From a virus, in the IMG/VR virus record IMGVR_UViG_3300035670_001417, positions 1 to 21,084 of that record: a stretch of DNA of 21,084 nucleotides; one strand, given 5' to 3'. The position numbers and the translations under genes are program-made. This document shows, piece by piece, positions 2,776 through 21,084 of the stretch (its first letter is position 1; each line of letters opens with the position of its first letter). Below the pieces are notes generated by a model. That model did no database searches. It was not told where the DNA came from and saw nothing but the letters and a program-made list of their open reading frames with translations.

Positions 2776-5019
2776 ATGGCAGAGCGACTACCGGTTTATA
2801 AACAAAGAGGAGTTCAGATCGACCCGTACAGGGCAGCTGATTTTTCGCCTTTACTGCGCGAGACGAGAAACCTACAGCAGGTTCAGAGCAGAGCTCTCGA
2901 TCGCGTTATTGATTATGCGACCCAGGTCGGCAAAGAGCAGGCAATCCAAGAGGGCCGACAGTCCGTCACGGATGTCGAGCAGGCAAAAGTTATTCTCGGC
3001 CAGGTCAAAGAAAAGGGAATGCCGTTTAGCGCATTTGACCGCGCCGCATACGACCAGGCAAACGAAGTGCTGGCCCTCGAGCTCGACAATCAGGGTCGGG
3101 CGATGTTTTCCCAGAAGATCAAGCAGTACAAGCAAGACCCAAACGCCGACCCAATCAATTTCCTGGCAGAGACCGGCGACATTGCGCTGGGCTTTGATTC
3201 GCTCACCTCGCTGCTCGATCCAAAGCTGCGGGCCAAAACTGCAGCTGGCCTACAGAGAGCTCGCGACACGGCATTCCTGGAAATCTCAGAAACCTACAAT
3301 GACCGCGTCGCAAAAGAAGTCCAGGCCAAGGGCATTGCAGGTATCGCTCAGCGCCGCGACGACATTAGCAGGCTTGGCGCTTCCAACAAGATTGGCGCCG
3401 AGAATGATCTTTTCCTCGAGATTCAAGACATTCGCACATTTGCGCGGGCCAGCCAGATTGGCGCGATCGAAGCTGAGAAGCAGGTTATCGGCGCAATCGA
3501 GGATTTTCACATTCAGCGAATCCGCAAGGAGTTTGCAAAAGCTCCGGACAAAGCAGCTTTTCTGAAAAATCTGCAGGCGGATTTAAGCAGCGGTCCAATC
3601 GGTGATCTATTTGATGAAAAGGGCAATCCGACCAAAACAGACCGTTTGAGCCGCGGCATTGACCCAGCCAAGGTCACTGCACTAACCAATGAGTTTGAGG
3701 CCGACCTAAGGGCTCAGGACGCCCAGGTGAGGGCATTGCGCACCGAGATCAAAGGCGACATCACCGAGACGATGCGCATATTCAGCCTGGGCGCTGTCCC
3801 GGACCAGTCCGTGGTCTCTGATATTCAGCGCCGCGTTACCAGCCTGGGCGGTGCAGCTGACCCTGATCTAGTGGCCCAGGCAAATTACCTCGGTGTTTTG
3901 CGCCAACAATCCATTGCATTTAGCAAAATGAATTCAGCGCAGCTCGGTGATTGGATTCGCAATGCCGAGCAGCAGACGGCCAATGGTGCAAACCTTCAGC
4001 AGGCCATGCTGATCGATGTGGCCAGAAAATCCCTGTCGTCCCTGACCAATGACCTGGAAAAGGACCCGGTGGCCAGGATGAACCGCACCGGGTTTGCGCC
4101 GGTCAAGACTCTGGATTTTACGGCCCAGCCAGACCAGCTCATGTCCCAGATTAAAGAGCGCGTGACCCAATCCAGGGCTTTTGCTGAGACGCAGGGCCTG
4201 GCCGTTCCAAGATTTCTCTCGAATGACGAGGCGGCTCTGATGAGCTCATTCCTCGACAAAGCCCCGATCGACAATCAAATTGCATTCCTCGGGACGATTA
4301 ACCAGGGTTTTGGCAAAGACACCGGCCTGGTGCTGTCAGAGATGTCCAAGTTCGCCCCAGAGTTTGCCCATGTGGCTGGCCTGTCTACGGTCGGCGCCAG
4401 CAAGTCCACCCTGGTTGACGCGCTCAACGGCATCAAGCTTTCTAAAGAGGGCGTGAAGACATTCGAGGGTTCCGGCGACGCGGCTACCAAAAAAGCGCAG
4501 CTCGCCGACCAGCTTGGCGGCGCCTATATCTACGCACCCAAGACGCGCCAGGCCATCGTCAAGACAGCCGACGCCATCTACCTGTCGCGCTCCATCGGTA
4601 TGGACAAGACGGTATTCGACGGCGAGCTCTACAAGCAGGCATTCCAGGAGGCGTCCGGTGCCGTTATGTATAAGGACGGCAAGCTGCGCGGCGGCATTAT
4701 TGAGCACCGCGGCGTGAAAATGGCCATTCCCAACAACATTCCGCAAAACGATTTCTCCAGCATTTTGGACAAGGCGACGCTAGAGGATTTTGCAGCTGCG
4801 ACCGGCGTGACCCCACAGGACGAGAAGGGCAGGGCGTACACGGTGGACCGTTTGCGCAAGGCTTACCTTGTGTCGCGAGATGACAGCACGGCCATCATGT
4901 ATTACGAAAACCCGACCGACAAATCCAATCCGGTCGCATTCGGCGGCGCAAACGGCGAGCAGCTAATCATCAACTTACGCGTCTTGGCTGACCGCGTAAC
5001 GCAAAGGACCAAGCGATGA
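2776..5019 (+). CDS. Internal virion (ejection) protein, T7 gp15-like
   Basis: A 747-residue, strongly charged, largely helical protein without signal peptide or membrane segments, and the same size as T7 gp15 (747 aa). T7 gp15 forms the periplasmic part of the ejection channel together with gp16. N-terminal sequence (residues 1-40: MAERLPVYKQRG, then Y.AADFSPLLRE) resembles the N-termini of proteins annotated as internal virion protein in many podoviruses. The middle is rich in Gln, Ala and charged residues, consistent with long helices. Its TGA overlaps the ATG of the next gene by four bases (ATGA at 5016), so expression is coupled to the large polyvalent-type protein. Family assignment is by position, length and composition. 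Confidence 0.65.
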   Translation: MAERLPVYKQRGVQIDPYRAADFSPLLRETRNLQQVQSRALDRVIDYATQVGKEQAIQEGRQSVTDVEQAKVILGQVKEKGMPFSAFDRAAYDQANEVLALELDNQGRAMFSQKIKQYKQDPNADPINFLAETGDIALGFDSLTSLLDPKLRAKTAAGLQRARDTAFLEISETYNDRVAKEVQAKGIAGIAQRRDDISRLGASNKIGAENDLFLEIQDIRTFARASQIGAIEAEKQVIGAIEDFHIQRIRKEFAKAPDKAAFLKNLQADLSSGPIGDLFDEKGNPTKTDRLSRGIDPAKVTALTNEFEADLRAQDAQVRALRTEIKGDITETMRIFSLGAVPDQSVVSDIQRRVTSLGGAADPDLVAQANYLGVLRQQSIAFSKMNSAQLGDWIRNAEQQTANGANLQQAMLIDVARKSLSSLTNDLEKDPVARMNRTGFAPVKTLDFTAQPDQLMSQIKERVTQSRAFAETQGLAVPRFLSNDEAALMSSFLDKAPIDNQIAFLGTINQGFGKDTGLVLSEMSKFAPEFAHVAGLSTVGASKSTLVDALNGIKLSKEGVKTFEGSGDAATKKAQLADQLGGAYIYAPKTRQAIVKTADAIYLSRSIGMDKTVFDGELYKQAFQEASGAVMYKDGKLRGGIIEHRGVKMAIPNNIPQNDFSSILDKATLEDFAAATGVTPQDEKGRAYTVDRLRKAYLVSRDDSTAIMYYENPTDKSNPVAFGGANGEQLIINLRVLADRVTQRTKR

Positions 5020-8000
5020 GCTTTGTTTACGACGAGCTCCAGCCAGCCCCGAGACAAGGCAAGTTCGCGCCAGGCGGCGAGGACACCGGGTTCACCGAAA
5101 ATTTCAATGCAGCTTACGAGTCTGGCCTGCGCCTAAACCGGACAGATTCCAGAGCCATTGGTCTGCGCCAGGAGTGGCAGCCAATCATCGAGGACATTCA
5201 GAGCAAAACCGGACAGCGCTTTGTCAACCCGGGCAATTTCTTGTCTGGTTATCAGGCGAGCTCGGAAACCGGAGCTCGGCAGTACGACTACACCAGCAAG
5301 CAGATTCTGGACTATGTGAAATCAAAATCGGATCTGTTCCCCGATTATCAAAACATCTCCAATGAATCGCTATTCGAGAATGCTAAGAAAAAGGCTATTG
5401 ACGCCAAAGATGTCGACGCAGATGTTGCGGCGAAACAGACATTCTCCGGCTGGCTCGGAAACTTTGGCGGCACTGCAGCTGCGGTTTTGACCGACGCACC
5501 TAACCTGGCGATCACCGCAGCTGACCTGGCATATACCCGCGGCGCTGGCTGGTCGGCCATGCGCGAGATCCTGTTTCAGTCTGTACTCAACGGCGGCGCA
5601 GAAGCGATCACCCAGGCCGAGGTGGCCGACTGGTATAAGCAGCTCGAGCTGCCCTACGACTGGACGACATTCGTCACCAATGTCGGCACCGCTGCAGCTG
5701 GCGCCGGCGTGATTACAGCTGGTGTGCTCGGTGCCAAGCCGGCCATTCGGTTTACCAGAGAGCAAATCTCCAACGGCGTCGAGGCGCTTGGAAAGTACAT
5801 GTCCAAGCGAGACGGCACCCCATACGAGATCGACCCGGATCTAAAGGTGGTTAAAGATGTGGCGGCAGACGAAGCTTCCATCTCAACGGCCAATGTCATT
5901 AAGGACGACGCAGGCGACCTGGAGCATACAGCCAGGGTCAGCAATGCTTACCGGGCAGTGGTCGAATCCGATGTGTCGAAGATTCCAACAAACCTGCCGG
6001 AAAACGAGCGGGCCCCGATTACCGACATCAACTACCACGACAAGATCAACAGCCAGATTTTTGCCTACAAGCCCAATGAGCTGCTGGTCGACGCCGAGCT
6101 GTTCCAGTTTAAAACCGGCGGCGATGTGATGGGCGTGACCGAGCGCTTGCAAGGCGTTACCAGCTGGGACCCGATCAAGGCCAACACGGCCATCGTGTTT
6201 GAGTTCGCAGACGGCAAAACCTTTATCGCTGACGGCCACCAGCGCCTGGCCCTGGCCAAGCGCCTGCAAGAGACAAACCCTGAGCTCGACATTCAGATCA
6301 ACGCATTCAAGCTGCGCGAGGTCGATGGATACACGCCAGCTGAGGCGCGAGCTGTTGCAGCTGGTAAGAATCTAGCGGAAGGCAGCGGGACCCTGCTCGA
6401 CGCGGCCAAGATATTAAGAGACGCGCCTGGCCTGGTAGATACCCTACCACCGCGGTCCGTGTTTGTCCGCCAGGCTCAGGACCTGTCGAATCTGTCGGAC
6501 ACAGCGTTTATGGCCGTGGTCAACGACATTGTCCCGCCTAACATGGCGTCGCTGGTCGGTCGGTACATTACCGACGAGGCGCAGCAGCTGGCGATCCTAA
6601 ACCTACTCAAGCGCCTCGAGCCAGCCAACATGACCCAGGCCGAGCAGATTGTGCGCCAGGCGCGTGAGGCTGGATTCGTACAGGCAGCAGAGCAGGGTGG
6701 TCTATTCGGCGACGAGGTCCTGGCCGAGAGCCTATTCCTGGAGCGCGCCAAGATTCTCGACAGGGCGATCAAGGAGATCCGCAAGGACCGCGAGCTTTTT
6801 GCGACGCTGGTCAAAAACGCTGATGAGATTGAAGAAGCAGGCAACACGCTGGCAAAATTAACGAACCAGCAGAAAGAGGAAATCTATGGCAAAGCCATTG
6901 CAATCATCCAAGCCAACGCAAATACAAAAGGGCCAATCGCAGAATCTCTCACCAGAGCGGCCCAAGCGTGGAAAGAAAGTGGCGGAGCCAAAGCTCAAGA
7001 CATTGTCCGCGACTTTACCGAAAGCGTCCGACGAGCGATTGAGAGCGGCGATTACGAAGGGATTCCAAATGGCGGAGATCGCGGCGATTTCACAGATGCG
7101 GCGCAAAGCAATCGCAGCGCAGAGCCAGGCGCAGACGAGCTAAACCTATTCGACGAGGGGCCTGGCTCCAGAGGAGCTGAGCGCCAGAGCGAGCAGCTTG
7201 AGGGCGACCTGCGTGGCGAGATGCCAAACGAGGGTAGGCCGATCACGGTCGATGAGTATGTGGCCAAGTCCCTTGCGCAAGAAGATTTAGACAAGCTTGC
7301 ACCTGAGGCGCAGCTGGCATTGCGCAATCTGTACCAGGACGCAGCTCTGCGCAAGGAGGCATTCGACGCCACCAATCGTCGGATCGCTGACCTGGTAAGC
7401 GGCAATTATCTGCAGGCCGACCTAAAGGGTTCGCCACGAGCTGTTGAGAAAATTCTGTTTGACTACGCCGGCGACCCATCGAAGATCAAGGACCTGCTGC
7501 GCGCCACCATCGTCGTGGAGAATTTCCAGCAAGCTGGCGTCGCACTGCGTGAGCTGCGGTCCCAGTACAAGGTCCTGGACGAGGGCTTTAGAAACTTACT
7601 CGACCCGAGCGTCAAGGCGCTCGACGGTGGTTATCGCGACATCAAGATGAATGTCGAGGTCGACGGCCACATTGCCGAGATACAAATTACGATCCCGGAA
7701 TTCGCAGCTGCCAAGAAACAGATGCACTCGCTCTATGAAGAGCGTGATGCAATCTTGCGTCGCGTCGATGCAGACAATCGTTTACCAACAGCTGAAGAGG
7801 CTGCCAGCATTGCTGATCTAAATGGCCGTATGAATGCTACTTACGAGGCAGCTTTTGAAGCAGCTCTAAGCCGTTCAAACTCGGCCTTGTCGATTGGTGC
7901 GCCGTTGCGCAGCGCAGAAGCGGAAGGGAAAGGTCTTGGAGCTGGACCATCCCAGGCGGCGCAAAAGCCGTCGAAACCGTCTACTGAACCCAGCGTAACG

Positions 8001-8255
8001 GGTATGCCCTCAACATCGAGGAATTCGACATTTTTGGATGATTTCATATCTGATACCTCTGACCTAAGTTTAGCGCGAATCGATACCGGTAGCAAAGCAA
8101 ATCAGGAGCTCATGGACCTAGAGGTTCCGGTGGGCGAAAGGATCGATCCGGAAACTGGTGAGCGTGTCGCACAGACTGCTACAGTGCGGGAAATACTCAA
8201 TGAGTTTGAGCAAGACAAGTCTATGCTAGACCGACTGATAGGGTGCGTCAAATGA
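5016..8255 (+). CDS. Large ejection protein with ParB-like and RelA/SpoT-like domains (polyvalent-type)
   Basis: 1079 residues. Residues 1-280 resemble ejection proteins and include two Ala/Gly-rich hydrophobic stretches (about 145-170 and 225-245) that could insert in membranes. Residues about 340-455 form a ParB/DdrB-like domain: IVFEFADGKTFIADGHQRLA, with the GHQR box at 407-410, then the EGSGTLLDAAK segment. Residues 455-700 are helical. Residues about 795-915 resemble a RelA/SpoT synthetase fold: KGSPRAVEK (804-812), DLLRATIVV (826 onward), GGYRDIK (Y873), AEIQI (E888, Q890) and H904..LYEE. D826, Y873 and E888 fall where the catalytic Asp, guanine-stacking Tyr and catalytic Glu lie in RelA-type enzymes. 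The usual His of GYRxxH is Lys and the Arg of GxR is not conserved, so activity is uncertain. A Ser/Pro-rich linker (about 968-1010) precedes a conserved-looking C-terminal tail. Its stop overlaps the next ATG. Injection with the DNA is inferred from position. Confidence 0.72.
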   Translation: MSFVYDELQPAPRQGKFAPGGEDTGFTENFNAAYESGLRLNRTDSRAIGLRQEWQPIIEDIQSKTGQRFVNPGNFLSGYQASSETGARQYDYTSKQILDYVKSKSDLFPDYQNISNESLFENAKKKAIDAKDVDADVAAKQTFSGWLGNFGGTAAAVLTDAPNLAITAADLAYTRGAGWSAMREILFQSVLNGGAEAITQAEVADWYKQLELPYDWTTFVTNVGTAAAGAGVITAGVLGAKPAIRFTREQISNGVEALGKYMSKRDGTPYEIDPDLKVVKDVAADEASISTANVIKDDAGDLEHTARVSNAYRAVVESDVSKIPTNLPENERAPITDINYHDKINSQIFAYKPNELLVDAELFQFKTGGDVMGVTERLQGVTSWDPIKANTAIVFEFADGKTFIADGHQRLALAKRLQETNPELDIQINAFKLREVDGYTPAEARAVAAGKNLAEGSGTLLDAAKILRDAPGLVDTLPPRSVFVRQAQDLSNLSDTAFMAVVNDIVPPNMASLVGRYITDEAQQLAILNLLKRLEPANMTQAEQIVRQAREAGFVQAAEQGGLFGDEVLAESLFLERAKILDRAIKEIRKDRELFATLVKNADEIEEAGNTLAKLTNQQKEEIYGKAIAIIQANANTKGPIAESLTRAAQAWKESGGAKAQDIVRDFTESVRRAIESGDYEGIPNGGDRGDFTDAAQSNRSAEPGADELNLFDEGPGSRGAERQSEQLEGDLRGEMPNEGRPITVDEYVAKSLAQEDLDKLAPEAQLALRNLYQDAALRKEAFDATNRRIADLVSGNYLQADLKGSPRAVEKILFDYAGDPSKIKDLLRATIVVENFQQAGVALRELRSQYKVLDEGFRNLLDPSVKALDGGYRDIKMNVEVDGHIAEIQITIPEFAAAKKQMHSLYEERDAILRRVDADNRLPTAEEAASIADLNGRMNATYEAAFEAALSRSNSALSIGAPLRSAEAEGKGLGAGPSQAAQKPSKPSTEPSVTGMPSTSRNSTFLDDFISDTSDLSLARIDTGSKANQELMDLEVPVGERIDPETGERVAQTATVREILNEFEQDKSMLDRLIGCVK
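7425..7760 (+). other. RelA/SpoT-like nucleotidyltransferase domain within the large ejection protein
   Basis: This segment encodes residues about 804-915 of the 1079-aa protein. By-eye comparison with small alarmone synthetases lines up, in order, the KG...S...K element, the D-x-x-x-x-x-I-V-V strand carrying the first acidic residue (D826), a helix of about 25 residues, GYR (872-874), a strand ending in E-I-Q (888-890), and a helix with H904 and LYEE. Order and spacing are what make the match convincing. Not checked by profile search. Confidence 0.6.
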
Positions 8256-10747
8256 GTTTTCGGGAATGTATCGTCAACGGTGAGAACGAGGGCAAGCTCA
8301 CGCCCGACCAGGCTGCCAAGGCTGGCGGCTTATTTGATGAGCTCGAGGCGCAATACAAGGAGCGCATGACCCCGTCCGAGGCCAGCGCCCAGGCAGCTCG
8401 GGACACATTCGACGCACTGAAGAAAGAGGCGATCGAGAAGCGTCGCGTCAAGCTGTTGCAAATCCGCAACTGGAAAGAAATCAGCATGAACCTCCAGCAA
8501 TACGCTGGTGGCAAAGACCTGGGCAAAGCGGCCCAGGCCCTGCTGGACCGGGACGAATTCGCCCGATATTCCAATGTCGAGGCGCGTCGCAAGGCGGTGC
8601 TCGGCCAGATTTACTCCAAAATGGACGATGTTCTGGCCACCTTCCGACGCCGCGGCGCCACGGGATACCTGGGCAACAAGGCCACAGCCGAGGACATGGT
8701 GCGTGAAGTATTCGGGGAGGACACGGGAAACCAGGCTGCCAAGCAGCTAGCCCAGTCCTGGAGCGAGGCAGCTGACTATGCCCGCCAGCGCTTTAACAAG
8801 GCTGGTGGCGCTATCCCGAAACGCAAGGATTGGGGAATGCCCCAGATCCATGAGTCGATGCTGGTCCGAAAGGCTGGCCGGGACGAGTGGAAAAATTTTA
8901 TCCGGGACAAGCTCGACGCAGAGAAGATGATCGACGAGCGGACCGGGCTGAAGTTTACGCCGGAGCGTCTCGAGCTTGCGCTCGACGAGGTCTATGAGTC
9001 TATCGCCACAGAGGGCTGGAGCAAGGTCAGGCCGTCTGGAGCTGGTGGCAATCGATCACTAGCTGGCCGTCGCCAGGACCACCGGTTCCTGTCATTCAAA
9101 AACGCCGACGCCTGGCTCGAATACCAAAACCGATTCGGCAATCCGCAGCCGTTTGCGACGATGGTCAATCACCTCGAGGGCATGGCCAGGGACATCTCCA
9201 TGATGGAGATACTAGGGCCTAACCCTAATGCGACGGTCCGGTTTGTCCAGCAGACGGTGCTTAAGGACGCCAACATGCGCCAGGCAAGCGACGCAGCTGG
9301 CAATTATGTGGACCGAGCTCGCAGCCAGCTTGGGCAGTTTGACTCAATGTATTCGATCCTCAACGGCTCGACCATGTCGCCGGTCGATGGGGTGGTGGCC
9401 AGGACCTTTGCCGGAGCCAGGCAGATTCTCCAGGCGGCCCAGCTTGGCGCCGCTGCCGTCTCAGCTCTGACCGACATTAACTTCCAGCGGATCGCCGCCA
9501 AGACTTCCGCGGTCCCAGCTGCCAAAGTGGTCAAGCGGGTTGTGGAAAACATGATGCCCTTGGGCGTCGATGAGCGTGGCCGCCTGGCGTCTCGCCTCGG
9601 ATTGATCGCTGAAAACTGGACCAGCCTGGCGTCAGCTCAAGCCCGATTCGTGGGTGATGTCACTGGCCCGGAAATCACCCAGCGCATCAGCGACACGGTC
9701 ATGCGGATCACCCTGCTGTCACCCTGGACCCAGGCTGGCCGGTGGGCATTCGGCATGGAATTTATGGGATACCTGGCCGACCAGGTGGGCAAGAAATTTA
9801 CCGAGCTCGACAAGCCACTGCAAGATACCTTGCGCCGCTACGGGTTCGGACCCGACGGCTGGGAGACGATTCGGACAGCTGGCCTGTATGACTATGAGGG
9901 CTCCAAGTTTCTGCGCCCCGAGGAGATCAGCGAAATGACCGGCCTGGGCGATAACCAGGCAGACCGATTCGCCACCCGGTTCCTGGAGATGATCCAGACC
10001 GAGACGGAGTTTGCGGTCCCCTCGAGCTCGGTCCGCGGTCGGACCATGCTGGTTGGCGAATCGCGGCCAGGAACCTTTATCGGTGAGGTGGCCAGGTCAT
10101 TCGCCATGTATAAGAATTTTCCGGTCACGCTGCTCAATACTCATGTCATGCGGGCCGTCAACCAGGAGGGCGCCGGCAAGAAGGGCGCCTACATGGCCGA
10201 CCTGATTATCTCGACCACCCTGTTCGGCGCTATGGCCATGCAGCTCAAGGAGGTCAGCAAGGGCCGGGACCCTCGGACCATTGCGACGCCAGAGTTCTGG
10301 GGTGCGGCCATGCTGCAGGGCGGTGGCCTGGGAATCCTGGGCGACTTCCTGTTTAACGATGTCAACCGATTCGGCGGTGGCCTGGAGCAGACCGTGGCCG
10401 GTCCGGTGGTCGGGTTCCTGGACGACACGCGGCGCCTGACTATTGGAAACCTCCAGGAGCTGGCCACAGGCAAGGACACCAATTTCGTGCGCGAGCTCAT
10501 CAATTATGGTGGCCGGTACACGCCAGGCGCCTCGATCTGGTACCTGCGCCTGGGGCTGGAGCGCCTGGTCCTGGACCAGCTGCAGACCTGGGGCGACCCA
10601 GAGGCAAAGCAGAGAATGCGCCAGCTCGAGGCAAAATACCGCAGGGAAACCGGTCAGAGATACTGGTGGGCGCCAGGCGATGTCTCGCCTGACCGGGCGC
10701 CAGACTTTTCAGCAATTACGGCGGAACCGCCGCCACGGAGGAAATGA
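8252..10747 (+). CDS. Large internal virion (ejection) protein, gp16-position
   Basis: 831 residues from the ATG at 8252, chosen because it overlaps the previous stop as ATGA; an in-frame GTG nine bases upstream is less likely. The N-terminus (SFRECIVNG, then GKLTPDQAAKAGGLFDELE) and the C-terminus (YTPGASIWYLRLGLERL, then GQRYWWAPGD..PDRAPDFS) are patterns I associate with very large podoviral ejection proteins. Several Ala/Gly-rich hydrophobic stretches near residues 385-410 and 650-700 could help cross membranes. No lysozyme or lytic transglycosylase motif of the T7 gp16 type is visible. Together with the 1079-aa protein it occupies the place of T7 gp16 (1318 aa), so the gp16 role may be shared between two polypeptides. 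The stop overlaps a 16-codon mini-ORF. Confidence 0.75.
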   Translation: MSFRECIVNGENEGKLTPDQAAKAGGLFDELEAQYKERMTPSEASAQAARDTFDALKKEAIEKRRVKLLQIRNWKEISMNLQQYAGGKDLGKAAQALLDRDEFARYSNVEARRKAVLGQIYSKMDDVLATFRRRGATGYLGNKATAEDMVREVFGEDTGNQAAKQLAQSWSEAADYARQRFNKAGGAIPKRKDWGMPQIHESMLVRKAGRDEWKNFIRDKLDAEKMIDERTGLKFTPERLELALDEVYESIATEGWSKVRPSGAGGNRSLAGRRQDHRFLSFKNADAWLEYQNRFGNPQPFATMVNHLEGMARDISMMEILGPNPNATVRFVQQTVLKDANMRQASDAAGNYVDRARSQLGQFDSMYSILNGSTMSPVDGVVARTFAGARQILQAAQLGAAAVSALTDINFQRIAAKTSAVPAAKVVKRVVENMMPLGVDERGRLASRLGLIAENWTSLASAQARFVGDVTGPEITQRISDTVMRITLLSPWTQAGRWAFGMEFMGYLADQVGKKFTELDKPLQDTLRRYGFGPDGWETIRTAGLYDYEGSKFLRPEEISEMTGLGDNQADRFATRFLEMIQTETEFAVPSSSVRGRTMLVGESRPGTFIGEVARSFAMYKNFPVTLLNTHVMRAVNQEGAGKKGAYMADLIISTTLFGAMAMQLKEVSKGRDPRTIATPEFWGAAMLQGGGLGILGDFLFNDVNRFGGGLEQTVAGPVVGFLDDTRRLTIGNLQELATGKDTNFVRELINYGGRYTPGASIWYLRLGLERLVLDQLQTWGDPEAKQRMRQLEAKYRRETGQRYWWAPGDVSPDRAPDFSAITAEPPPRRK

Positions 10748-10794
10748 TGGCAAAACCGACCATTCTAGGTTATAAAAACGCAGGGGAAAAATAA
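10744..10794 (+). CDS. 16-residue mini-ORF coupling the ejection gene to the tail fibre gene
   Basis: ATG at 10744 overlaps the upstream stop (ATGA), and its TAA overlaps the tail fibre ATG (TAATG). It encodes MMAKPTILGYKNAGEK. It bridges the only gap between two genes in this otherwise overlapping series, suggesting ribosomes are handed across by reinitiation. GGGGAAAAA just before the fibre start may be a weak ribosome-binding site. Whether the peptide itself does anything cannot be told from sequence. Confidence 0.35.
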   Translation: MMAKPTILGYKNAGEK

Positions 10795-12215
10795 TGGCAG
10801 ATTATCCGATCTCACCCGTAGTGCGTCGCGTTGTTTACACCGCCTCTGCTGGTGTAGGCCCCTACGCCTTTACCTTTGAAATCCTGGCTCAGACCGACAT
10901 CGATGTTTATGTCGACTCGACGCTAAAGACGCTGACCACGGATTACACGGTCACGATCAACGCAAACGGCACGGGCGAAATTACTTTTGTCTCTGCGCCG
11001 ACTTCAACAGCTCGCGTCACGATTGTCGGCGCCAGGTCGATCGAACGGGCCACGGACTTTGTGACCGGTGGCGACCTGACGGCCAGCTCCCTTAACCTGG
11101 CGCTGGATCAGAATGTGATCTTCTCTCAGCAAAATGCTGAAGCGCTTGGCCGTGCAATCCTTGCGCCGGTGACTGACCCGAGCTCCATTAACATGGTGCT
11201 GCCGGCTCAGACCAGCCGGGCCGGTAAGGTCCTGTCGTTTAACTCCAGCACGGGAAACCCAGAGACCAGCATTACGGTGACGGCCATTAACGATGCTGCC
11301 ACCAATGCAGCAGCCGCGGCGGCCAGCGCTTCAGCTGCGGCTAGCTCGGCCAGCGCTGCATCCTCAAGCGCCAGCTCGGCCTCCTCATCAGCAAGCGCTG
11401 CCAGCAGCTCGGCCAGTGCGGCGTCGAGCTCTGCAAGCTCGGCAAGCAGCTCGGCAAGCGCGGCATCTTCTAGCGCGTCAGCTGCAGCCTCGAGCGAAAT
11501 TCATGCAGCCTCTAGCGAGACTGCAGCTGCAGGCTCCGCCTCTGCTGCTGCCAGCTCGGCGAGCTCTGCATCCTCTAGCGCTTCAGCTGCAGCTGGATCG
11601 GCCAGCACGGCCAGCTCGGCTCAGGCTGCGGCGGAGGCTGCAAGGGACGCCACCCTGGCCGCTTACGATAACTTTGACGACCGCTACCTGGGAGCCAAGA
11701 GCTCCGACCCGTCGGTGGACAATGACGGCAATGCCCTGGTGGCCGGCGCCCTGTACTTCAACACCACCTCGAGCGTGATGAAGCTCTACACGGGCAGCGC
11801 CTGGGTCGCAGCCTATGTGAGCGGCGCAGACTACCTGGCCAAGGCGAATAACCTCTCGGACCTGGTCAGCGCGCCCACGGCTAGAATCAACATTGGGATC
11901 GAGACCGGAGCTACCGGCTCAACGAAAGTGGCCTCTGGCACTGCGGCGCAAAGGGATGGATCACCAGCTGCGGGTTACTTTCGGTTCAATACCGATGTCG
12001 CAAAGTTTGAGGGTTACAACGGAACAGCCTGGGGCGCAGTGGGTGGTGGGGCAACAGGTGGTGGCAGCGACGCAGTGTTCGTTGAGAATGACCAGGTGGT
12101 GACCACAAATTACACAATTCCGTCCGGCAAAAATGCGATGAGCACTGGGCCGGTTACTGTCAACTCCGGGGTGACTGTCACAGTCAGCACCGGCTCACGA
12201 TATGTGGTGATCTGA
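10794..12215 (+). CDS. Tail fibre protein with T7 gp17-type N-terminal domain
   Basis: 473 residues. Residues 1-125 match the T7 tail fibre N-terminal domain (VYTASAGVGPYAFTFEI near 14-30, D.YV.., and TASSLNLALDQNVIFSQQNA near 96-115), which attaches the fibre to the tail. Residues about 168-287 are an Ala/Ser repeat shaft. Residues about 290-350 contain DRYLGAKSSDPSVDNDG and GALYFNT, then LYTGSAW, a common fibre motif. The C-terminus (FVENDQVVTTNYTIPSGKNA then VNSGVTVTVSTGS) is a beta-rich cap seen in many marine phage fibres. There is no obvious enzymatic spike domain. The gene lies directly after the ejection genes, as gp17 does in T7, and the distal adhesin genes follow immediately. Confidence 0.88.
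   Translation: MADYPISPVVRRVVYTASAGVGPYAFTFEILAQTDIDVYVDSTLKTLTTDYTVTINANGTGEITFVSAPTSTARVTIVGARSIERATDFVTGGDLTASSLNLALDQNVIFSQQNAEALGRAILAPVTDPSSINMVLPAQTSRAGKVLSFNSSTGNPETSITVTAINDAATNAAAAAASASAAASSASAASSSASSASSSASAASSSASAASSSASSASSSASAASSSASAAASSEIHAASSETAAAGSASAAASSASSASSSASAAAGSASTASSAQAAAEAARDATLAAYDNFDDRYLGAKSSDPSVDNDGNALVAGALYFNTTSSVMKLYTGSAWVAAYVSGADYLAKANNLSDLVSAPTARINIGIETGATGSTKVASGTAAQRDGSPAAGYFRFNTDVAKFEGYNGTAWGAVGGGATGGGSDAVFVENDQVVTTNYTIPSGKNAMSTGPVTVNSGVTVTVSTGSRYVVI
11296..11655 (+). repeat. Ala/Ser-rich degenerate repeat shaft in the tail fibre
   Basis: About 120 codons are almost entirely Ala and Ser, in units such as AASSSAS and SASSASS, with recurring DNA words such as agctcggc and aagcgct. 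It is a low-complexity coding repeat, probably forming a trimeric coiled shaft, and could expand or contract by slippage or recombination. Confidence 0.85.
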
Positions 12216-18916: not shown

Positions 18917-19075
18917 TCAAAAACTCCTTTTGATGAAGAAACATTCGTAAGCGTGGCGCTGGCCGTTGGCGTCGATATAAGTCTCGCCGCAGCCTGCAAA
19001 CCACTCGATTAAAAGAGCAGCGCCAAGGGCGCCACAAAACAGCAACAGCAGCAGGTCAATCAAAAACTTTTTCAT
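18917..19075 (-). CDS. 52-residue single-pass membrane or lipoprotein-like protein
   Basis: ATG at 19075, with AAGGAGG at 19080-19086 on the minus strand as ribosome-binding site (4-base spacing). The protein begins MKKFLIDLLLLLFCGALGAA and continues LLIEWFAGCGETYIDANGQR. Residues 4-27 are hydrophobic and follow two Lys; FAGC at 26-29 is close to a lipoprotein cleavage box. The rest is a small charged domain with three Cys in total after residue 28 or within the segment. Not recognised. Its last codons contain the ribosome-binding site of the exonuclease gene, which starts one base after its TGA. Confidence 0.6.
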   Translation of the reverse strand: MKKFLIDLLLLLFCGALGAALLIEWFAGCGETYIDANGQRHAYECFFIKRSF

Positions 19076-19164
19076 TCGTCCTCCTTAATTCCAATCCAAA
19101 TGCCGAGACAGATCACGGCCCCCATCCAAAAAATAAACTCCACGACATCCCACGGCGAGCTCAT
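19072..19164 (-). CDS. 30-residue single-pass membrane protein
   Basis: ATG at 19164 overlaps the stop of the recombinase gene as ATGA, and its TGA overlaps the ATG of the next gene as ATGA, so it fits perfectly between two coupled genes. It encodes MSSPWDVVEFIFWMGAVICL then GIWIGIKEDE, one membrane helix at about 8-25 with an acidic end. No upstream ribosome-binding site better than a weak GGCAGC. The overlaps on both sides are the main support that it is translated. Function unknown. Confidence 0.5.
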   Translation of the reverse strand: MSSPWDVVEFIFWMGAVICLGIWIGIKEDE

Positions 19165-20268: not shown

Positions 20269-20543
20269 GCTTGCCTCCTTGCGTTGTCAATAACTAGCTC
20301 GGCCATGTCCGCGGCGATCGTCTGCATCGTGACCGCGTAGCGATTCTCGACCAGGCGCATGATCTTGCGACCGAGGGCGCCATCTGGGTTCACATCTGCG
20401 ACGCGATCGGCGTAGGCCGTGCGCCCTCTGAACCCGCGGACCGGGATCTGGTACCTGGTGTTAATCAGGACATCGCCGAGCGGGCTGATGCGGACCGTGT
20501 AGAGACGGCCCCTGAGCTCAACGACATCGAGGACCTGGGCCAT
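20265..20543 (-). CDS. Hypothetical protein, 92 aa
   Basis: ATG at 20543 overlaps the TAA of the upstream gene (TAATG). The protein starts MAQVLDVVELRGRLYTVRIS, followed by PLGDVLINTRYQIPVRGFRG, RTAYADRVADVNPDG and a helical Met/Ala-rich end. A beta-rich first half and a helical second half can be seen; no signal peptide, membrane segment or known motif. It is placed directly after the LPD29 gene in the same unit and may act with it. Function unknown. Confidence 0.6.
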   Translation of the reverse strand: MAQVLDVVELRGRLYTVRISPLGDVLINTRYQIPVRGFRGRTAYADRVADVNPDGALGRKIMRLVENRYAVTMQTIAADMAELVIDNARRQA

Positions 20544-21084
20544 TACGCGGCCCTCCTTCCGGTGCGTCCGTAACCGTAACCGTCGTCGCCGAGGTTCACG
20601 ACGCGATTGGCCGTCGCGCAGGGCGCTGGCTCGACCATGCCGGTCCTGGCGATCTGCTCGCCGATCAGTCTGCGGATCGTGTACTCGTCAAAGCCACGGG
20701 CCACCGTCTCCTCGGCGATGGTCATGTTGCCGACATAGTTGTCATACTCGCCGCGAATGACCTCGATCTCGGCGTCGAGACCGTACTGCAGGCGGACCGC
20801 GTTGATGCAGTCGGTCAGCACCTCAACAGTGAGAGCGCGGTTCGTGAAAATGTAGTCGGCACCGAATCGCACCTCCTCGCCGTCGAGCTGGTTGAAGAGC
20901 GCGCCTTTGTAGTCGGTCATGCCGTCGAAGTAGGCGCCCTCGAAGCGCCCGACGATCCCTTTGACAGCGTTGGCCGTCGGGCCGTCGGTCCAGCCGACAT
21001 TGATGCTGGCACCGCCGGCGTAGGTTTTGCTGCGGACCGCAAAGCGCACACCAGGGAAAGCCTCGCGCAGCGCCTGACGCACCA
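20543..21084 (-). CDS. LPD29-domain protein (large polyvalent protein-associated), partial at right edge
   Basis: The frame is open to the window end; the first in-window start codon is a GTG at 21082, which looks like an internal Val (RQALREAFPGVRFAVRSKTY), so the true start lies beyond 21084. Residues about 5-60 match the LPD29 pattern: L...FPGV.F.VRS..Y.GG.SI.V.WTDGPT...V, then FDGM.DY. LPD29 was described among domains associated with polyvalent proteins of phages and conjugative elements, and its biochemical role is unknown. The C-terminal 100 residues are less familiar (YDNYVGNMTIAEETVARGFD, then GYGYGRTGRR). First gene seen of the minus-strand unit. Confidence 0.72.
   Translation of the reverse strand, partial: VRQALREAFPGVRFAVRSKTYAGGASINVGWTDGPTANAVKGIVGRFEGAYFDGMTDYKGALFNQLDGEEVRFGADYIFTNRALTVEVLTDCINAVRLQYGLDAEIEVIRGEYDNYVGNMTIAEETVARGFDEYTIRRLIGEQIARTGMVEPAPCATANRVVNLGDDGYGYGRTGRRAA

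Follow-up and report, generated by a model that had tools for sequence, protein, structure and literature searches.

The stretch of viral DNA analysed here (the window; 21,084 nt) contains, on its plus strand, a run of virion genes in the order of p15–p20 of phiV10, an epsilon15-type phage. A tail protein gene (105–2309; phrog_376, cf. phiV10 p15 and epsilon15 p12) is followed by genes for a small internal virion protein (2312–2773; phrog_418), a “head protein” (2776–5019; phrog_992, cf. phiV10 p18, E = 7.7e-6), a 1079-aa protein (5016–8255) and a virion structural protein of the epsilon15 gp17 type (8252–10747; phrog_684, cf. phiV10 p20, E = 1.4e-101), whose start was set at the ATG at 8252, overlapping the preceding stop. 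By its ORF, its orthologues and synteny, the 1079-aa product, here called the carrier, is classed as an internal virion or polyvalent-type protein with a RelA/SpoT-like domain, in the epsilon15 gp16 position. Its full-length orthologues are 1073–1080 aa long and 64%–80% identical. The initial annotation had described it as a phage ejection protein; of this, gene order relative to phiV10 upholds its location within the cluster of ejection-protein genes, among the internal virion proteins. Proteins of this class enter the cell by ejection, with Epsilon 15 given as one of the phages that eject them (PMC8954989). The corresponding place in phiV10 is taken by p19, a 600-aa protein with no RelA-like domain and no significant sequence match to the window protein; the carrier is regarded as its counterpart because of its position and because the C-terminal tails look alike by eye. 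This backbone tail (8109–8252, plus strand; ..DLEVPVGERIDPETGERVAQTATVREILNEFEQDKSMLDRLIGCVK) is retained in homologues that have no cargo domain. Profile searches of genome contigs gave no matches with a first profile and, with a second, RelV-type and MuF-type genes and no orthologue of the window protein. A full-length AlphaFold2 model made with 10 orthologues (pLDDT 42.7) was too poor to be used or to show how the synthetase domain is presented. Elsewhere in the window, a free-standing protein with LPD29, a polyvalent-protein-associated domain, is encoded on the minus strand (20543–21082; Pfam E = 4.9e-22).

The domain of interest, a RelA/SpoT-type synthetase (SYNTH) domain by its profile match to Tas1 and its AlphaFold2 model, spans residues 775–962 of the carrier (7338–7901; this and all other carrier features lie on the plus strand). 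It had been placed at 7425–7760 in the initial annotation. Those coordinates map correctly (K804 at 7425, residue 915 ending at 7760, within the ORF), and the domain exists, but it is larger than they imply. The five elements by which it was recognised (KGSPRAVEK, DLLRATIVV, GGYRDIK, AEIQI and H..LYEE) are all found in that order, and a regular expression combining them with their spacings has one match in the protein and none in 20,000 shuffles. A single-sequence phmmer comparison with Tas1 (6ox6) gives E = 6.7e-8, and a profile of 21 relatives searched against the PDB finds Tas1 (E = 3.7e-20), then SaSAS/SaEAS (0.0034) and E. coli RelA (0.005). The Pfam RelA_SpoT model scores the window domain at a sub-threshold 17.5 bits (cut-off 27) and matches 11 of the 21 relatives, at best with E = 7e-8. 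The structure model of the domain (pLDDT 86.8, pTM 0.80) superimposes on RelQ/SAS1 with Z = 16.6 and 2.3 Å over 165 residues, followed by RelP (Z 15.3), Tas1 (15.2, at 30% identity), SaEAS (13.3), CapRel (11.9) and FaRel2 (7.2). With homology far above chance level and small alarmone synthetases as the best matches among known structures, the fold is that of a RelA/SpoT-type synthetase, in agreement with the initial annotation. Between orthologues, dN/dS within the domain is 0.04–0.12, which indicates purifying selection.

The active site can be followed through 40 viral copies of the domain. In the donor-nucleotide-binding motif region, K804-x3-R808-x3-K812 (7425–7451), K804 and K812 are present in 40/40 and R808 in 39/40, and equivalents of all three residues occur in Tas1 and RelV-type enzymes. 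In syn2, D826-L-L-R829-A-T831 (7491–7508) contains the metal-binding Asp and the R..T of Tas1/RelV-type enzymes, with D826 and R829 in all 40 copies. Equally invariant (40/40) are the acceptor-binding loop of syn3, G872-Y873-R874-D875 (7629–7640), and the catalytic Glu motif of syn4, E888-x-Q890 (7677–7685), as well as D816, G819, D820, K900, H904, Y907 and Y943. The invariance of D826 and GYRD in this set is partly selected for, because the scan patterns that gathered it covered both regions; they did not cover E888, Q890, K804, K812 or R829. An independent set of 22 copies, found solely through the neighbouring phrog_684 gene and so free of motif bias, has D826, R829 and E888 in 22/22 and Y873 and Q890 in 21/22, with H904 missing in many. 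The catalytic positions are invariant down to about 25%–30% identity. Hence D826, Y873 and E888 do lie in catalytic positions, as first proposed, and the fold claim stands with D826 and E888 invariant in the family alignments. What does not hold is the idea that a “changed” His and Arg set the domain apart: R829/T831 and an absent His are typical of active RelV/VpEAS-type and Tas1-type enzymes. R829/T831 is common to Tas1, and R829 with GYRD is common to the RelV-type proteins of Vibrio, Photobacterium and Shewanella. Loss of activity through these residues was considered and ruled out, since RelV-type and Tas1-type enzymes have the same ones. A group of related phages (L122–L132) has divergent RelA-like copies in the same slot; these have GYFD and ExQIW, lack the His of HxxY and may differ in substrate.

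Could the fold be a non-catalytic relic, retained for binding nucleotides or nucleic acid in the ejection machinery? DNA binding is known for internal virion proteins of this class (PMC8954989), and no enzymatic role is evident here for the other parts of the carrier. Nevertheless, a relic is quite improbable, given that the catalytic positions are invariant even in the 22 divergent copies found through the neighbouring gene and that homologous ejection proteins occur without the domain. A catalytically competent synthetase is the reading followed below.

What would such an enzyme make? The SxH of syn3 and the IR of syn4, features of the canonical (p)ppGpp-producing small alarmone synthetases RelQ and RelP, are absent; the window has GYRDIK and EIQIT. 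The (p)ppApp synthetases Apk2 and Apk1 have an RxT in syn2, which is present (D826-L-L-R-A-T), and a GxN in syn3, which is absent, with D-I-K there instead. The RelV/VpEAS motifs D..R.[TS], GYRD[LI][KN] and E[VI]Q are all present. The RelV-type enzyme VpEAS makes (p)ppGpp as its sole product and is toxic in the cytoplasm (PMC12691689), and the MuF-Apk2 toxin, whose syn3 has GxN, yields (p)ppApp alone (PMC12226406). Judged by motif, (p)ppGpp is the more likely product of the window domain, because its DxK in syn3 resembles the DxK or DxN of RelV-type enzymes, and (p)ppApp is the next. This prediction is uncertain because the deep forks of the tree are open, the domain not being joined to RelV-type enzymes with firm support, and because Tas1, a (p)ppApp maker, is as near in structure.

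The initial annotation had allowed for either nucleotides or tRNA as the target. The domain might modify tRNA, although its closest characterised relatives are nucleotide makers. A tRNA pyrophosphokinase of the toxSAS/CapRel type would block translation by modifying the tRNA 3′ end, and such enzymes share the fold, CapRel and FaRel2 being among the structural matches (Z 11.9 and 7.2). All the nucleotide makers compared (RelQ, RelP, Tas1 and SaEAS) score above these two, the motifs have a RelV/Tas1-like signature, and the hydrolase encoded by sibling phages (described below) is akin to small alarmone hydrolases, so a tRNA-directed activity seems improbable. A check for a CapRel/toxSAS toxin–antitoxin system with PADLOC gave no match, and the genes adjoining the carrier are virion genes.

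The synthetase domain lies in a slot whose contents are exchanged between related phages. DNA alignment with one relative (L157) is 74% identical over window positions 5601–7201 and 8112–11249; the segment between them (7202–8111) does not align. The L157 protein, a 1108-aa ORF upstream of the phrog_684 match, is 68% identical to carrier residues 1–739 and 73% identical to residues 1032–1079, and the segment between these conserved parts is a zeta-toxin kinase (PF06414, E = 7.6e-19). The same slot holds zeta kinases in L120, L142 and L116 and, judging from its near-identity to L116, in L115; in L154 it holds a GNAT-like domain. A search for the same fusion in related phages shows that close orthologues all keep the RelA-like domain, with 63%–79% identity within it, and that in the wider lineage, delimited by the phrog_684 gene, 22 of 50 records have one. 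The same backbone and C-terminal tail occur without the domain in Dunaliella virus SI2 (792 aa), L131 (780 aa) and L140 (774 aa), so the domain is dispensable for the role of the backbone. Between L015 and L020, dS is 0.98 in the RelA domain and 0.08–0.12 in the adjoining segments, a contrast as expected from domain replacement by recombination. The exchange with a zeta-toxin kinase, the absence from SI2 and the replacement within a clade thus mark the domain as cargo. The module has a conserved tail of its own (7902–8024; APLR.AE...G....SQA....VTGxPSTSRN), which trails the domain in unrelated backbones too. A stretch ending in TGxPSTS(K/R) also follows the RelA-like domain in L023, L024, L031 and L032, and could be a linker or a processing site. 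In L107, L110 and L152 (1244-aa ORFs), an additional insert of ~170 aa, without a Pfam match, lies ahead of the RelA-like domain.

With RelA-like, zeta-toxin kinase and GNAT-like domains exchanged in homologous backbones, the carrier is a large multidomain phage protein of the polyvalent kind. Its linkage with a ParB-like domain, as the initial annotation had it, finds no such support. The conserved region in question (residues 346–470, 6051–6425) has a DGHQRL motif and is ParB-like by that motif only; it has no significant Pfam hit and no profile match to Pfam-verified ddrB-ParB domains (hhalign probability 0.1%). A MuF domain was sought at the N-terminus, and the 1079-aa protein has no Pfam MuF match. 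Other carriers of RelA-like domains have domain make-ups of their own. For example, a Pfam-verified ddrB-ParB domain and a RelA-like domain occur in one protein in L023 and L028, and a single ORF of L031 (5465–10069) combines ART-PolyVal, a RelA/SpoT-like domain and the phrog_342 (“internal virion protein with endolysin domain”) and phrog_684 families. A portal protein (PF06381) has a C-terminal RelA/SpoT-like domain in the same ORF in L025 (3237–5528) and L029 (5192–7510). The records of L025 and L029 also contain an HD_4 hydrolase.

Sibling phages of the window encode an enzyme that may act on the predicted product. An RSH-type HD hydrolase (PF13328) is present in 6/6 siblings whose contigs cover the interval between a serine recombinase and a RecE-like exonuclease. 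It is located ~11 kb downstream of the carrier on the opposite strand (L094, 10750–11283, minus strand; L090, 5354–5875, plus strand; also L091, L092, L093 and L095) and contains the elements HDxxED and KLAD..N; its matches are to small alarmone hydrolases and to the hydrolase half of Rel/SpoT proteins. No hydrolase was found in the window, which covers the place where the siblings have theirs; there, the interval between the serine recombinase and the RecE-like exonuclease (18918–19160, minus strand) holds two tiny ORFs only. The zeta-bearing G062 has no hydrolase either. In the wider lineage, counting records of 30 kb or more, the hydrolase occurs in 1 of 14 that are RelA-negative and in 0 of 4 that are distant and RelA-positive. 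There are parallels: a hydrolase gene lies two genes downstream of the carrier of Bordetella phage PHB04, an HD hydrolase gene adjoins a pneumococcal MuF gene, and Apk2 and Aph1 form a synthetase–hydrolase pair (PMC12226406). The sibling hydrolase is a candidate antidote, in a role that is hypothetical because descent explains its distribution as well as function does. Its association with the RelA domain is not claimed as proof of a toxin and its antidote, being confounded with descent: the hydrolase is present in one RelA subclade.

How might these observations be explained? What computation shows is the fold, the homology, catalytic residues that are conserved, purifying selection, synteny, exchange of the module and a hydrolase in siblings. 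From these, the domain is probably a virion-delivered, catalytically competent small alarmone synthetase that forms exchangeable cargo in an epsilon15-like podoviral ejection protein; packaging, delivery, activity, product and benefit are the parts that we infer. The carrier would be packaged alongside the other internal virion proteins and ejected with the DNA into the cell. In the newly infected cell, its cytoplasmic part would then transfer pyrophosphate from ATP to a nucleotide’s 3′-OH, so that at entry, host transcription, translation and nucleotide pools might be throttled or a nucleotide-based defence disturbed. Later, in related phages, the hydrolase could clear the product. The position in an epsilon15/phiV10-type cluster, the phrog_684 virion structural protein downstream and the internal-virion fusion in L031 all favour delivery. 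The lack of a hydrolase in the window, the confounding of the hydrolase with descent and the poor full-length model weaken this reading.

The location of the gene in a structural cluster also makes its expression probably late, as would suit a toxin that works in the producing cell, through late or leaky expression, against host metabolism or rival phages, with its presence in the virion incidental. Homologues of the MuF-Apk2 type are toxic on expression (PMC12226406), and the sibling hydrolase could shield the producing cell. Such a toxin is nonetheless unlikely, since close orthologues always hold the cargo inside an internal virion protein and never as a free gene, and the other carriers are virion-type proteins too (portal, head morphogenesis and internal virion proteins).

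What would follow if the synthetase is delivered? First, the enzyme would act as an alarmone synthetase during the first minutes of infection, ahead of phage gene expression. Second, it would allow a direct test of deliberate (p)ppGpp or (p)ppApp elevation by phages at entry. Alarmone production by a phage is the opposite of the usual view, in which alarmones are the host’s own. Third, the exchange of RelA-like and zeta-kinase domains at one site between constant flanks would extend to the podoviral ejection machine the polymorphic-toxin principle, which is known from secretion systems and MuF proteins. Indeed, it is possible, although we suggest it with less assurance than delivery itself, that epsilon15-like podoviruses have, between a constant body and an equally constant C-terminal tail, a polymorphic-effector slot that is filled by a RelA/SpoT synthetase, by a zeta-type kinase, by an acetyltransferase or not at all. 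The effector would be injected at every infection, and in some genomes an alarmone-hydrolase antidote encoded elsewhere would restore nucleotides after entry.

The initial annotation took the fusion for a system not yet described; as far as its kind goes, this is wrong. In 2017, Iyer et al. described RelA/SpoT domains in the polyvalent proteins of phages, including some of Helicobacter prophages that also have DdrB-ParB, and in MuF head proteins as fusions to MuF. They also reported MuF fusions of zeta-type kinases and suggested that alarmone signalling takes place at entry (PMC5512222). In the Helicobacter prophage proteins, the RelA/SpoT domain stands beside DdrB-ParB and PBECR domains (PMC5512222). 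The carrier resembles these proteins in that a RelA/SpoT-type domain is part of a large multidomain phage protein presumed to be delivered on entry (PMC5512222). The earlier set was reported from (pro)phages of spirochaetes and epsilonproteobacteria and from MuF proteins, whereas the window has a carrier in the epsilon15 gp16 position, no confirmed DdrB-ParB and an exchange of RelA and zeta domains in one slot. A literature search limited mostly to non-subscription journals found no paper describing podoviral ejection proteins that carry a zeta or RelA module. Within that literature, the podoviral epsilon15-type carrier, the slot that exchanges RelA, zeta or no domain, and the hydrolase in sibling genomes appear to be new.

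Four further systems bear comparison. The system of MuF-Apk2 adenosine 3′-pyrophosphokinase toxins, for which IapK/Aph1 provide immunity (PMC12226406), likewise joins an alarmone-synthetase domain to a phage virion protein and has an HD-type hydrolase in the same genome, as is true here of the siblings only. Unlike MuF-Apk2, the carrier has no MuF context, the siblings’ hydrolase is non-adjacent and in an opposite-strand block, and GYRDIK stands against GxN, so the product may differ. RelV and VpEAS of Vibrio, Photobacterium and Shewanella (PMC12691689) share K...R...K, D..R.[TS], GYRD, E.Q and H..Y with the phage domain, but they are free-standing and Sec-exported, are ~26%–30% identical to it and form no firm common clade with it. 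In Photobacterium sp. DA100 (L003, 3636–5468), two RelV-type genes with signal-peptide-like N-termini lie in tandem. Tas1/Apk1 (6ox6) is the closest PDB sequence match, with 30% identity in the structural alignment and R..T after the metal-binding Asp; it differs in being a type VI effector, delivered by the T6SS, with a GYSGVN acceptor loop and (p)ppApp as its product. Finally, the region of gp15–gp17 in epsilon15 and phiV10 has the same order of tail protein, internal virion proteins, phrog_992, carrier and phrog_684, and a C-terminal tail that looks alike by eye.
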